The notes below the pieces were generated by a model. That model was given only the letters and a program-made list of their open reading frames with translations, had not been told where the DNA came from and ran no database searches. Below, one piece after another: positions 48,489 through 52,557 of a stretch of DNA of 52,897 bases; within the stretch, counting starts at the first letter, position 1, and the number at the start of each line of letters is the position of its first letter. The position numbers and the translations under genes were made by a program. Source of the DNA: an uncultured Clostridia bacterium (lineage in GTDB: Bacteria > Bacillota > Clostridia > Christensenellales > Borkfalkiaceae). The stretch lies in NCBI GenBank assembly GCA_944372525.1, contig CALVZL010000009.1, positions 1-52,897 on the forward strand. The letters run 5' to 3'.

Positions 48489-48764
48489 TCATTTCACAAA
48501 AAAAACGAGGATCACGATTGCCACAGCCATGAGCACGACAAACAATATGCCGCGGATGAGAAGAAGTTTTTTCTTGCTCATGGGCGTATATCCCGCCGGC
48601 GTGAGCTTCCCGCCGCAGTAGGGACATTTTTCCATGTGATCGAGGACACCCCGTCCGCACTGCGGACAGGCTACGGTATGCTTGCGCGCATATTCCTCCG
48701 CCCGACGGCGGCGTTTTTCCTCTCTTTCGAGTTTGTCTTCGTAGACCGTTGTCTTTTTTTTCAT
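48489..48764 (-). CDS. Zinc-ribbon membrane protein, unknown function
   Basis: The 91-residue product has a charged helical N-terminus (residues 1-27, EDKLEREEKRRRRAEEYARK), a zinc ribbon with CPQCG and CPYCG at about residues 33-50, and a single C-terminal membrane helix (about 68-90, LLLIRGILFVVLMAVAIVILVFF). It is probably tail-anchored with the ribbon in the cytoplasm. The ATG is the seventh base after a TATCAT box and has no Shine-Dalgarno sequence. It lies 60 bases after the glycyl-radical gene, so it may also be reached by pfl-operon transcripts. Function unknown. Confidence 0.75.
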   Translation of the reverse strand: MKKKTTVYEDKLEREEKRRRRAEEYARKHTVACPQCGRGVLDHMEKCPYCGGKLTPAGYTPMSKKKLLLIRGILFVVLMAVAIVILVFFVK

Positions 48765-48770
48765 GAAGCA

Positions 48771-48799
48771 ATGATACCATATCGGTGCGGAAAACGCAA
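48771..48799 (-). promoter_or_regulatory. Leaderless promoter of the zinc-ribbon gene
   Basis: Minus strand TTGCGT (48794-48799), 17-base spacer, TATCAT (48771-48776). The predicted start site is the A of the ATG at 48764. Confidence 0.6.
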
Positions 48800-48824
48800 C
48801 GGTTTCCGCGCCGCCTGCCACCAT

Positions 48825-49061
48825 TCACATGCTCTCATGAATGGTACGGGAAATGACGTCGTCCTGCTGTTCCTTGGTGAGCTTGACGAAATTGACCGCA
48901 TATCCGCTCACGCGGACGGTGAGCTGCGGATATTTTTCGGGATGCTGCTGCGCGTCGAGCAAGGTGTCCCGATTGAATACGTTGACGTTGAGATGATGCC
49001 CGCCGCTTTCGACATAGGCATCGAGCATGCTGACTAAATTTTCCGTTTGCTGCTTGGACAT
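48825..49061 (-). CDS. Separate glycyl-radical domain of pyruvate formate-lyase (GrcA-like)
   Basis: The 78-residue protein corresponds to the last part of Pfl[29 protein letters not shown], then the glycyl-radical loop RVSGYAVNF with Gly53, and the canonical end [18 protein letters not shown]. Autonomous proteins of this type (GrcA/YfiD) are known in Enterobacteria as spare radical domains that repair oxygen-cleaved PflB. Here the upstream pflB lacks this domain, so this gene is expected to be an essential subunit rather than a spare. It has its own AAAGGTGAGG ribosome binding site and starts 104 bases after the pflB stop. PflA should place the radical on Gly53. Confidence 0.92.
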
Positions 49062-49165
49062 ACCTGTTCCCTCACCTTTCCTTTTTTATTCTTGCGGAAT
49101 GGCTCCGCGGTCCGATCTTCGTTCTGCGCAAAAAAGCTTTTCAGCCGTATCCGCGCGTCGCCCCC

Positions 49166-51199
49166 TCAATCGTCCTTGCCCAACGACTGCGGCGTCACGG
49201 AAAAGGTGTTCGAAATCCCGTCGCGCGAAAATTCATACGGGATCTTCGCGACCGATTCGAGCGAGGCGAGCGCGCCGTGCGTATCCCGTCCGTGCATGGG
49301 GTTGGCGCCCGGCGCAAAGGGGTCTCCCTTTCTTCTGCCGTCCGGGGTATTGCCCGTATTTTTCCCGTAGACGACGTTGGACGTGATCGTAAGAATGGAC
49401 ATCGTCGGAACAGACTCCCGATAGGTCGTATGGCTGCGGATCTTGTTCATAAACGTTTTTACAAGCCACACGGCGATCTCGTCGACGCGGTCATCGTTGT
49501 TGCCGTATTTGGGATAGTCTCCCTCGATACGGAAATCCGTCGCGATCCCGTCTTCGTTCCGAAGCGGATACACCTTCGCGTAGCGAATCGCCGAAAGACT
49601 GTCGACCGCGCAGGAAAGCCCCGCGACCCCCGTCGCAAAAAATCGGCGCACCTGCGAATCATGCAGCGCCATCTCCAGTGCTTCGTAGCAGTATTTGTCG
49701 TGCATGTAATGGATGACGTTGAGCGTGTTGACATACAGTCCCGCAAGCCAGGTCATCATCTGATCGAACTTTGCGATCACGTCGTCGTAGACCAGCGGTC
49801 CGTCTCCGAAAATCGGCATGAACTCGGGCGAGACCTGCAGCGGTTTTCCCGTCGCGCGGTCCTTGACCAGTTCGTCCTTCCCCCCGTTGATCGCATAGAG
49901 CAGACACTTGGCGAGATTGGCGCGCGCGCCGAAGAACTGCATGTCCTTCCCCACCCGCATGCTCGAAACGCAGCAGGCGATACAGTAGTCGTCCCCCATC
50001 TCGGGGCGCATCAGATCGTCGTTTTCATATTGAATCGCCGACGTCGTGATCGAAATCTCCGCACAGAATCGCTTGAATCCCGCGGGAAGACGGGGGCTCC
50101 AGAGCACCGTGAGGTTGGGTTCGGGCGCAGGACCGAGATTGACAAGCGTGTGCAAAATGCGGAAGCTGTTTTTGGTAACGAGCGGTCTGCCGTCCACCCC
50201 CATGCCCCCGATGCTCTCGGTCACCCAGGTGGGATCGCCGCTGAACAATTCGTTGTATTCGCGGATGCGCATGAATTTGATCACGCGGAGTTTCATGACG
50301 AAATGGTCCATCAGCTCCTGGGCCTCCGTCTCCGTGATCCTGCCCGTCCGAAGATCGCGTTCGAGATAGATGTCGAGGAACGTGGAATTTCTTCCGATGC
50401 TCATCGCGGCGCCGTTCTGATCTTTGACTGCCGCAAGATATCCGAAATACAGCCACTGAATCGCCTCCTGCGCCGTCGCCGCGGGACGGGAGAGATCGAA
50501 CCCGTACTCCGCCCCCATTTCCTTGAGGGCGCGCAGCGCTTTGATCTGCTCCGCAAGCTCTTCGCGATCGCGAATCCTGTCCGGAAGCATGTCCCCCAAA
50601 AGGCGCGCTTTGTCCTCTTCCTTCTTGCGGATGAGATAGTCTACCCCGTAAAGCGCGACGCGGCGATAATCCCCCACGATCCTGCCCCGTCCGTAGGTAT
50701 CGGGCAGACCCGTGAGAATGTGCGCCCGCCGCGCGTTGCGCATCTCGGGCGTATAGACGTCGTACACGCCCTCGTTGTGCGTCTTGCGATAGTGGGTAAA
50801 AATATCGTCGACGCGGGAATCGATCTGATATCCGTACATTTCCAGCGCCTCCTCCGCCATGCGGATCCCTCCGAACGGCTGCAGCGCCCGCTTGAACGGC
50901 TCATCTGTCTGCAATCCCACGATCTTTTCGAGCGATTTGTCAAAATATCCCGCCTTGTGGCTGTTGACGCGCGAAACGATGGAGGTATCCGCATCGTACA
51001 CGCCTCCCCGTTCCCGCTCTTTTTTCGTGTATCCGAGGATGATGTTCCAGAGCTTTTTCGTCGCCTCGGTCGCAGGCGCAAGGAAGGCGCCGTCTCCCTC
51101 ATACGCCGTGTAGTTTCTTTGAATAAAGTCGCGCACGTCGATCTCGTCCGTCCACTTTCCTGCCTCGAACCCTTCCCAGGCATCAAAAAACTCTCTCAT
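49166..51199 (-). CDS. pflB: Pyruvate formate-lyase core subunit lacking the glycyl-radical domain
   Basis: The 677-residue protein has the full PflB catalytic barrel: [23 protein letters not shown] near the N-terminus, [23 protein letters not shown], and the active-site pair Cys409-Cys410 in [17 protein letters not shown]. It ends ...[19 protein letters not shown] followed by TGA. In one-piece PflB (about 740-760 residues) GKDD runs on into the glycyl-radical domain; here that domain is the next gene. With it, the enzyme converts pyruvate and CoA to acetyl-CoA and formate. The ATG overlaps the thioredoxin-like gene (ATGA). I see no frameshift that would rejoin the two parts. Confidence 0.93.
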
Positions 51200-51486
51200 T
51201 TCACCCCTCCTTTTTCATTGGTATCTCCGAGTTTGGCGTCCAGCCAAAGAGAAAGAATTTCTTCGGGCTGATAACCGCAGCAGCGCGCAATTTCCTCTCC
51301 GTCCCGAACGACCAACAGCGTCGGCAAACGGTCGATCGCAAGCCGCGCAAGCATCTCCTGCGTCTTTTCTCCCGCCTCCAGCCTGCGAAAGGCAACATTC
51401 CGTTCCCGTGCGAGCTTCCTCGCGATCGGCTCCGCCGCTTCACAGCCCGCGCAGCCCTCTCCGCTCACCAAAATCATCTCTGTCAT
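51196..51486 (-). CDS. Thioredoxin-fold protein with CxxC, inside the pfl operon
   Basis: A 96-residue thioredoxin/glutaredoxin-like protein: strand MILVSGEGC, redox pair Cys12-Ala-Gly-Cys15, and the cis-proline strand with the [22 protein letters not shown] pattern of thioredoxins. The C-terminal tail is short. It probably reduces a disulfide or delivers electrons to a partner. It overlaps pflA upstream and pflB downstream by four bases each, so it is made with them; reduction of the PflB Cys-Cys pair or of PflA is an attractive but unproven role. Confidence 0.82.
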
Positions 51487-52217
51487 ATGCTCTCCCCGTA
51501 TTTTCCCGCGCGCAGAATTTTTTTTGCGTTCTCCACCCTCTCTCGGGAAGGCGGCTGCGTTCCCTGCAAGCGATAAGGGATCCCCAGATTTCGATATTTG
51601 ACCTCTCCCATCGTGTGATACGGAAGCACTTCGATCTTTTCCACATTGGACAGCGTGTCCAAAAACGCCCGCGTACGGAGGAGCGCGCCGTCGTCGTCCG
51701 TGATCCCCGGAACGAGCACATGACGGATCCAGACGGGTTTTCCGCGCTCGCTCAGATATCGGGCAAACGCGCGGGGATTCTCCCCGGACTGCCCCGTGAG
51801 CGCCCTGTGCGCCTGCTCGTCGATATGCTTGATGTCGAGCAAAAACAGATCGGTCACCGCAAGCAGTTTTTCAAACCGTTCGTCCGCGCCGCCAAACGCG
51901 ATGCCGGACGTGTCGATACAGGTGGAAACGCCCGCTCCTTTGAGCAACGAAAACAACTCGGTCAAAAAAGAGATCTGCATGAGCGGCTCTCCCCCGCTCA
52001 CCGTCACGCCTCCCGTCTGCCCGAAATAGCGCCGATATTTGAGCGCTTCCCGCGCAAGTTCCTCCGCCTCCGCCTCCCGTCCGCCGGAAAATTCCCAGGT
52101 GTCGGGATTGTGACAATAGGCGCATCGCATCGGGCAACCTTGCAAAAAGATCACGAAACGGATTCCCGGTCCGTCCACCGTGCCGAACGATTCCAGCGAA
52201 TGAATCCGTCCCTTCAT
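51483..52217 (-). CDS. pflA: Pyruvate formate-lyase activating enzyme
   Basis: The 244-residue radical-SAM enzyme uses a [4Fe-4S] cluster and SAM to generate the glycyl radical. The start is typical (MKGRIHSLESFGTVDGPGIRFVIFLQGC), the cluster motif is C-x3-C-x2-C in CPMRCAYCHNP, and TVSGGEPLMQ and DIKHID are present. The ATG follows GGAGAGGAGAG. It is the first gene of the operon, behind a ZTP-type riboswitch, and overlaps the thioredoxin-like gene by four bases. Its substrate Gly is on the separate 78-residue subunit. Confidence 0.96.
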   Translation of the reverse strand: MKGRIHSLESFGTVDGPGIRFVIFLQGCPMRCAYCHNPDTWEFSGGREAEAEELAREALKYRRYFGQTGGVTVSGGEPLMQISFLTELFSLLKGAGVSTCIDTSGIAFGGADERFEKLLAVTDLFLLDIKHIDEQAHRALTGQSGENPRAFARYLSERGKPVWIRHVLVPGITDDDGALLRTRAFLDTLSNVEKIEVLPYHTMGEVKYRNLGIPYRLQGTQPPSRERVENAKKILRAGKYGESI

Positions 52218-52257
52218 CCTCTCTCCTCTCCGTCTCCTTCGCCGACGGCGAAGGAAT

Positions 52258-52298
52258 ATAAAAGGGCAGTCTCCCGGTTTTACCAAAAAGGACTGCCC
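52258..52298 (-). terminator. Riboswitch-associated terminator in the pflA leader
   Basis: Minus strand GGGCAGTC (52291-52298) pairs with GACTGCCC (52264-52271), followed by TTTTATATTCC. The 5' arm overlaps the GGGC of riboswitch stem P3, so the two folds exclude each other: ligand should favour P3 and read-through into pflA. Confidence 0.8.
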
Positions 52299-52365
52299 AG
52301 ACGAACGGCATTGCATCCTCCCTGCGGTTTCACGCGGTGCTCCGCTCAATCGTCAGTCGCCGCAG
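52294..52365 (-). promoter_or_regulatory. ZTP (pfl-motif) riboswitch
   Basis: Minus-strand leader: P1 CTGCGG...CCGCAG, the conserved internal-loop sequence CGACTGACGA, P2 GCGG-AGCA-CCGC, a linker GGGAGGATGCAAT, and P3 GCCGTTCGTCTGGGC, with the diagnostic CGTCTGGGCA. These match the ZTP/ZMP riboswitch family in order and spacing. The class senses ZTP/ZMP, alarmones of folate (10-formyl-THF) shortage, and commonly controls pfl and purine or one-carbon genes. Here it should turn on formate production when one-carbon units are scarce. Confidence 0.88.
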
Positions 52366-52382
52366 AGGTTTCATCTGCGGCT

Positions 52383-52411
52383 ATCATATCACAGGCGCGG
52401 CGCTTTGTCAA
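52383..52411 (-). promoter_or_regulatory. pfl operon promoter
   Basis: Minus strand TTGACA (52406-52411), 17-base spacer, TATGAT (52383-52388). The leader is about 160 bases long and contains the riboswitch and terminator. Confidence 0.85.
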
Positions 52412-52452
52412 GCGTTCCGAGAAAAATTATTTGGAAAATTTTTTCGAAAACC

Positions 52453-52471
52453 ACAAAATACAGTATTTTGT
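52453..52471. promoter_or_regulatory. Possible operator, 19-bp palindrome
   Basis: ACAAAATAC-A-GTATTTTGT, nine-base perfect arms, centred 51 bases upstream of the pfl -35 box in an AT-rich stretch. Position suits an activator. No regulator can be assigned. Confidence 0.45.
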
Positions 52472-52557
52472 ATTGAAAATAAACACAAGATATAGTTTAT
52501 CTTCGATTTTCGTGCCGCAACGGAAGCGAAACGGAGCCATCGGGCAAAATAAACATC

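Follow-up and report, generated by a model that had tools for sequence, protein, structure and literature searches.

We found that the genes for pyruvate formate-lyase (PFL) in the window, by which we mean the whole 52,897-nucleotide stretch of DNA analyzed here, from an uncultured Clostridia bacterium, very probably encode a constitutive two-subunit enzyme with an obligatory, possibly exchangeable radical subunit. PFL, a key enzyme of anaerobic sugar breakdown, is usually seen as one chain that is cut and killed by oxygen, with GrcA as a rescue accessory. From sequence, we infer complex formation, radical installation, activity, and exchange along the following lines. The large subunit would supply the substrate barrel and the Cys409-Cys410 pair, and the 78-amino-acid (78-aa) subunit (GrcA3) would supply a helix-forming stretch at its N terminus, the last strand, and the Gly53 loop, docking into the core in the manner of the residues beyond about 678 of one-piece PflB. 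Gly53 would receive its glycyl radical from the neighboring PflA, and oxygen would destroy the small subunit only, which could then be swapped without remaking the core.

Anatomy of the locus and of the divided enzyme

The genes of the locus lie on the minus strand in the order pflA, thioredoxin-like gene, PFL core, 104-nt gap, small gene, and zinc-ribbon-like gene, with the following features.

52383..52411, minus strand: promoter-like site TTGACA-17-TATGAT with TG, upstream of pflA (consensus match only)
51483..52217, minus strand: pflA, PFL-activating radical SAM enzyme, 244 aa, ATG at 52217
51196..51486, minus strand: thioredoxin-like protein, 96 aa, CAGC motif, with a 4-nt overlap with each of pflA and the core gene
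49166..51199, minus strand: pflB core, catalytic large subunit of the split PFL, 677 aa, Cys409-Cys410, ends SLGKDD-stop, type A (see below)
49062..49165, minus strand: gap of 104 nt separating core and small gene; contains AAAGGTGAGG, the Shine-Dalgarno-like site of the latter
48825..49061, minus strand: glycyl radical subunit, 78 aa, Gly53 in RVSGYA, NCBIfam NF038360 GrcA3
48489..48824, minus strand: zinc-ribbon-like protein of 111 aa, whose gene immediately follows the small gene

The sequence-only reading of this DNA had pflB end after GKDD and placed RVSGYA on a separate 78-aa gene 104 nt downstream with its own Shine-Dalgarno-like site. Coordinates and profile alignments agree with this account, and AAAGGTGAGG sits 8 nt before the small-gene ATG. 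With an ATG-to-ATG distance of 2 mod 3, the core and small genes are read in different frames, so one base change would not simply join them. Against the PFL model TIGR01255, the core matches positions 1 to 663 with 1068.6 bits (cutoff, 994.2) and thus reaches the model score alone; the small protein matches positions 665 to 744 in a protein scan and 664 to 744 in a genome search. By alignment, the core corresponds to residues 8 to 678 of Escherichia coli PflB and the small protein to residues 684 to 759. The Pfam Gly_radical model is also divided, with positions 1 to 48 in the core and 51 to 106 in the small protein.

The core carries the adjacent catalytic cysteines, Cys409-Cys410, and its chain is without the glycyl radical site, which is on the separate 78-aa protein; the earlier claim that all catalytic features are kept across the two chains is thus confirmed. 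The same was found in relatives, since the CC-V-S pair is present in all 111 near-complete split core rows (some places being entered twice), and the small proteins of those rows have the radical motif RVSGYAV in 110 cases and RVSGYAI in 1. The small protein also retains the stretch before the last strand, which, from PFL structures, we take to be a helix; GrcA aligns only from small-protein residue 19. The small gene is under purifying selection, with dN/dS values of 0.03 to 0.18 in 19 comparisons with relatives from the genus. Distances among cores and among small subunits are correlated (Mantel r of 0.78 over 99 pairs, with 0 of 999 permutations as high), a correlation that would also follow from shared ancestry alone.

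We found no one-piece PFL in the assembly (1,375,091 bases, 40 contigs, 88.7% complete), where a TIGR01255 search matched only the two split pieces. This is in keeping with the earlier proposal of a constitutive split, with the proviso that, at 88.7% completeness, an intact pflB could be missing from the assembly. The Gly_radical matches comprised the two pieces and one 724-aa frame on contig C30, which is taken to be a class III ribonucleotide reductase, and neither of these two profile searches revealed a further copy of the small gene in the assembly at that completeness. A gene for formate-tetrahydrofolate ligase is present. The assembly also has a PFOR gene (locus L276, contig C29 of G000), so the split PFL need not be essential; this gene matches positions 2 to 707 of 1167 and lies within about ten bases of the locus end, which is probably a contig end.

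A PFL-type activating enzyme is encoded nearby, as the window PflA scored 306.2 bits against TIGR02493 (cutoff, 231.75) in scans whose input was 3 bases longer than the 244-aa open reading frame. A sigma-70 scan of positions 48700 to 52500 gave a sole promoter-like site, at 52411 to 52383 upstream of pflA, a count that is not above chance because shuffled sequences average 1.7 such sites. In the 104-nt gap, the sigma-70 and hairpin scans found no promoter-like or terminator-like site on this strand. The earlier suggestion that the split sets the dose of the radical subunit separately from that of the core therefore finds no support in the window, with its one promoter-like site upstream of pflA; translational tuning of the small gene through its own Shine-Dalgarno site is possible.

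Distribution and origin of the split

The earlier reading had called for a survey of relatives; among 103 genomes from the genus, 30 have the same split (threshold E of 1e-15, with individual loci inspected afterwards). Of the remainder, 6 have a fused PFL, 1 (G126) has a fused PFL with an internal stop, 6 have only other glycyl radical enzymes, and 60 gave no match. Two of the 30 (G082 and G079) have the pieces on different contigs. Six genus members with a full-length match and an internal stop proved to have split genes in one frame, and G011, seemingly one long frame, has stops between the core and the small gene. The fused PFL of G126 (L021) carries its in-frame stop inside the glycyl radical domain and is not a split of the conserved type.

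Public genomes held at least 592 matching stretches, at least 584 of them encoding a relative. The best 80 of these, a sample biased by being picked for similarity to a stand-alone protein, comprised 79 stand-alone genes and 1 fused gene, from Enterococcus casseliflavus. Two further samples are less biased. Among 393 genomes of the class searched with NF038360 at an E value of 1e-36, 125 matched; 22 places in 21 genomes were short frames (78 to 274 aa) scoring at least 152 bits, and the longer frames scored at most 151.5 bits. Among 386 genomes from the phylum of a Gastranaerophilales member, searched at an E value of 1e-30, 102 matched, 55 with stand-alone genes (15 of them with two copies) and 47 with long frames. 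Stand-alone and long-frame matches never occurred together in one genome of the class or phylum sample at the E values used. Claveliimonas bilis, whose chromosome is complete, has a split PFL and, elsewhere, a one-piece PFL.

The 161 core rows that we collected, in which some places are entered twice and most fused rows were chosen because they are fused, include 118 with a separate same-strand small gene, 40 fused, and 3 without a small gene in the locus. Split cores come in two forms. Type A cores, like that of the window, stop 0 to 3 aa past the alignment end at GKDD, and type B cores have an extra 11 to 53 aa, often with VFxGDLD and acidic residues and sometimes GCC (this range leaves out L083, whose alignment ends at residue 595). 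The type B tails after GKDD, e.g., those of L065, L082, L104, and L126, are acidic and sometimes Cys-rich (VFMGDLDI...GCC), and such a tail is possibly a docking element for the small subunit. The median gap between core and small gene is 23 nt in 50 type A rows versus 111 nt in 68 type B rows.

Neighboring genes were counted in the 59 loci of L048 to L127 that have a near-complete split core (24 of type A and 35 of type B). A pflA gene is present in 45 of them (23 of the 24 type A loci and 22 of the 35 type B loci). Relatives of the thioredoxin-like gene at 51196 to 51486 occur in 20 of the 24 type A loci and in 0 of the 35 type B loci, so this gene may serve the type A PFL. The zinc-ribbon-like gene has a relative in 2 of the 59 loci, and its membership in the operon is uncertain.

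All split cores fall in one clade, and thus share a common origin, in both trees that we built, a quick one with 143 cores (support, 100) and a careful one with 53 (100/100), and types A and B form supported groups within this clade (100/98 and 100/100, respectively, in the careful tree, each including nested fused rows). The fused rows within the split clade are L020 and L026, from the window's genus; L236, inside type B; and L086 and L192, which stand beside A and B in a branching order that the tree does not settle, L192 being a long branch. Both trees need a minimum of 3 changes between fused and split. The direction of the split is read from the fused PFLs outside the clade.

We also looked at the small domain apart from the core tree, after dropping duplicate loci and L021 with its stop. 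At position 38, all 108 split rows and all 4 rows set aside as re-fused (L020, L026, L236, and L086) have Q, and the 34 other fused rows all have M, Y, or L. At position 67, D occurs in 100 of the 108 split rows and in all 4 set-aside rows, with no D among the residues shown for the other fused rows (32 of 34). Placement in the core tree was the reason for setting aside L020, L026, and L236, and L086 was set aside because of its position next to the split clade and its appearance and is therefore not an independent test of the signature. The nesting of these fused PFLs in the split clade, together with Q38 and D67, suggests re-fusion, which we regard as probable. The pattern fits one origin of the split followed by at least two later re-fusions, although separate origins of A and B are possible. 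The data support a split that is conserved, old, and no artifact, and in which the catalytic residues are kept.

Unlinked and phage-borne copies of the small gene

Stand-alone small genes were also found away from a core. Among the non-viral loci, 23 of 152 stand-alone rows had no same-strand core in the locus; these come to 19 places after removal of duplicates, at some of which the locus ends at a contig end. At 10 of the 19, all in Gastranaerophilales records, the bacterial record L061, or the phylum sample, the small gene is divergent from a gene for a protein like the Crp/Fnr-type regulator of L055. Five of these neighbors were scanned, and each has a cNMP_binding and an HTH_Crp_2 domain; a stretch similar to CTSMCQNAC is conserved. 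Ferritin genes lie near 3 of the 10 places (L063, L071, and L273). The intergenic regions between the Crp/Fnr-type gene and the small gene of L059, L063, and L273 share a palindrome-like TTGTTGTATAAACAAC / TTGTTGTAAAAACAAC followed by a TATAAT-like sequence. In an Anaeroplasmataceae genome (L067:3427-4225), a second small-gene copy starts 28 nt after a rubrerythrin gene, and another copy adjoins the core. The other 8 places have neither type of neighbor. None of the core-bearing loci among L048 to L127 and L190 to L275, many of which are short, matched the three neighbor queries. The Crp/Fnr-type and rubrerythrin neighbors may point to control by oxygen.

Small genes of this type also occur on viral contigs. 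Of 62 IMG/VR loci, 15 (L128 to L142, with near-copies L133/L142 and L137/L138) have stand-alone genes whose products are 72 to 85% identical to that of the window; 12 of the 15 have no core in the locus, a core being present in L131, L133, and L142, and L143 to L145 are fused. A terminase match in L132 and a major head protein match in L136 were found; the neighbors in L131 look bacterial, so not every contig need be viral. The gene order is nrdD-small-nrdG in L128 (1803-4796) and nrdD-nrdG-small in L134 (1233-4228), with nrdD and nrdG confirmed by PHROGs, in which the families of the phage small protein (phrog_1209 and phrog_21327) are labeled "unknown function." For L128 and L134, use of the small protein as a replacement radical domain for the phage NrdD is ruled out, as both NrdDs keep RRTCGY. 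We suggest, from the biochemistry of class III reductases, that the phage NrdD might use formate made by PFL. In L133 (4255-6261) and its near-copy L142 (3808-5814), a PFL core downstream of the small gene contains three in-frame TGA codons. Aligned to the window core, they fall at or beside tryptophans 16, 51, and 325; on these contigs, TGA may encode Trp.

Among annotated phages, 1539 of 50,697 records matched the small protein, and 86 of the 1539 cover at least 80% of the query; one human-fecal phage fragment matches residues 5 to 78 at 80%. Phages with GrcA-like genes, T4 being among the matches listed, likewise carry a small glycyl radical protein, but the match starts at residue 15 to 20, as in GrcA, in 38 of the 40 matches listed, whereas the genes of L128 to L142 are of the split-PFL type.

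These copies bear on the earlier idea that the split makes the radical part cheap to replace, for which the second copies beside Crp/Fnr-type regulators or rubrerythrin and the phage copies are indirect support, and they lend similarly indirect support to separate dosing outside the window. They also bear on the strongest alternative, that the enzyme has two subunits but the split is neutral, an ancestral accident kept by chance with no role in repair or dosing. We give this a substantial chance, somewhat short of even; it is a subcase of the same anatomy, so its probability overlaps with that of our preferred reading. The single clade in the core trees, the fused forms nested inside it (the split thus seems reversible without obvious loss), the single promoter-like site for all genes in the window, and the lack of a second small-gene copy in its assembly are all in keeping with neutrality. 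Indirect evidence against it comes from other lineages, in the unlinked copies beside Crp/Fnr-type regulators or rubrerythrin, and from phage contigs that carry the small gene alone.

Relation to GrcA proteins, solved cores, and gut anaerobes

The window small protein belongs by score to GrcA3 (NF038360; 161.1 bits against a cutoff of 158), and many other split small proteins fall just below that cutoff. The family name, "autonomous glycyl radical cofactor GrcA3," implies a stand-in cofactor; the window protein, in contrast, would be the sole radical domain for a core that lacks one. The sequence-only reading had the anatomy right but lacked both this match and the two PDB cores described below. 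E. coli GrcA (YfiD), also encoded apart from PflB and small, shares the fold region and RVSGYAV and restores PFL activity, but its N-terminal half is disordered and matters for binding, and it serves an otherwise complete PflB (PMC8683613). In that study, YfiD binds the oxygen-cleaved core 1-733; with a core of residues 1-695, binding was undetected and the glycyl radical yield was 32-fold lower, yet activity equaled that of the wild type once the radical was installed. A two-chain PFL is thus catalytically possible, but a cut in this region does not work automatically. The cut in the window, at the equivalent of E. coli residue 678 and before the helix, differs from both the 695 and the 733 cuts.

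Two PDB entries titled "Formate acetyltransferase" fall within the split clade, so cores of this kind have already been solved by others. Entry 38la (687 aa) ends with SLGKED exactly at the type A stop and is in type A, grouped with Erysipelotrichaceae type A cores (subgroup support, 92/77). Entry 38lb (739 aa) is sister to a Collinsella split core (100/99) and has 53 residues beyond the core that, like type B tails, have no match to the small protein. The chain in either entry could have been cut by design. Our PDB search found no chain of the small-subunit type, alone or with these cores.

A second alternative, which we consider very unlikely, is that the small protein is a spare part of the GrcA/YfiD type for a damaged one-piece PFL and that the short core is a decayed or truncated pflB. 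Homology to GrcA (PDB 6owr) and the NCBI name speak for a spare part, as does the one-piece PFL of C. bilis, where such a role is possible. In the window's assembly, however, there is nothing to repair, given that no one-piece PFL was found at 88.7% completeness, and the small protein scored 92.7 bits against the GrcA model TIGR04365, under the cutoff of 170. The lack of any genome with both stand-alone and long-frame matches in the class and phylum samples, at the E values used, also argues against it. Decay is contradicted by the catalytic pair in every near-complete split core row and by cores that end at or shortly after the same site.

The chance that an assembly or sequencing error broke a one-piece pflB is negligible, since, although the window comes from a single draft assembly, the genes are in different frames with a 104-nt gap, and the split recurs in 30 of the 103 genus genomes and in other phyla, including the complete C. 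bilis chromosome. Joining of the window's two genes by a frameshift or by read-through is ruled out by the frames, the gap, and the conserved split.

The two-subunit PFL is known in part, in that the small family is already named at NCBI and cores of the clade are in the PDB. A search of open-licence PMC literature, without preprints and by titles and abstract starts, turned up no article about a PFL that is split or encoded by two genes, nor one about GrcA3; the passage on a "separate gene" in PMC12288474 is unrelated to a split PFL. As far as this search shows, the pair as one enzyme, its probable single origin, the two forms, the re-fusions, the second copies, and the phage-borne subunits are new.

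If PFL is here a core plus a radical subunit, then binding, activation, and exchange of that subunit become directly measurable, and the split enzymes offer a natural comparison for the E. coli core cut at 695, which is poorly activated with YfiD (PMC8683613). An annotated "truncated PflB" beside "GrcA" may be one enzyme. The design recurs in many gut bacteria, and some phages carry the small part alone. We tentatively propose, as an idea that could well be wrong, that gut anaerobes of several phyla run PFL on a consumable radical cartridge. The core would be durable, and the 78-aa subunit would be spent by oxygen and resupplied from the operon, from stress-controlled second copies, and even from phages, which would bring the cartridge only. 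In some phages its gene lies beside those of an anaerobic ribonucleotide reductase, an enzyme that may need formate from PFL. A two-subunit PFL could explain the recovery of formate production after oxygen in some gut anaerobes.
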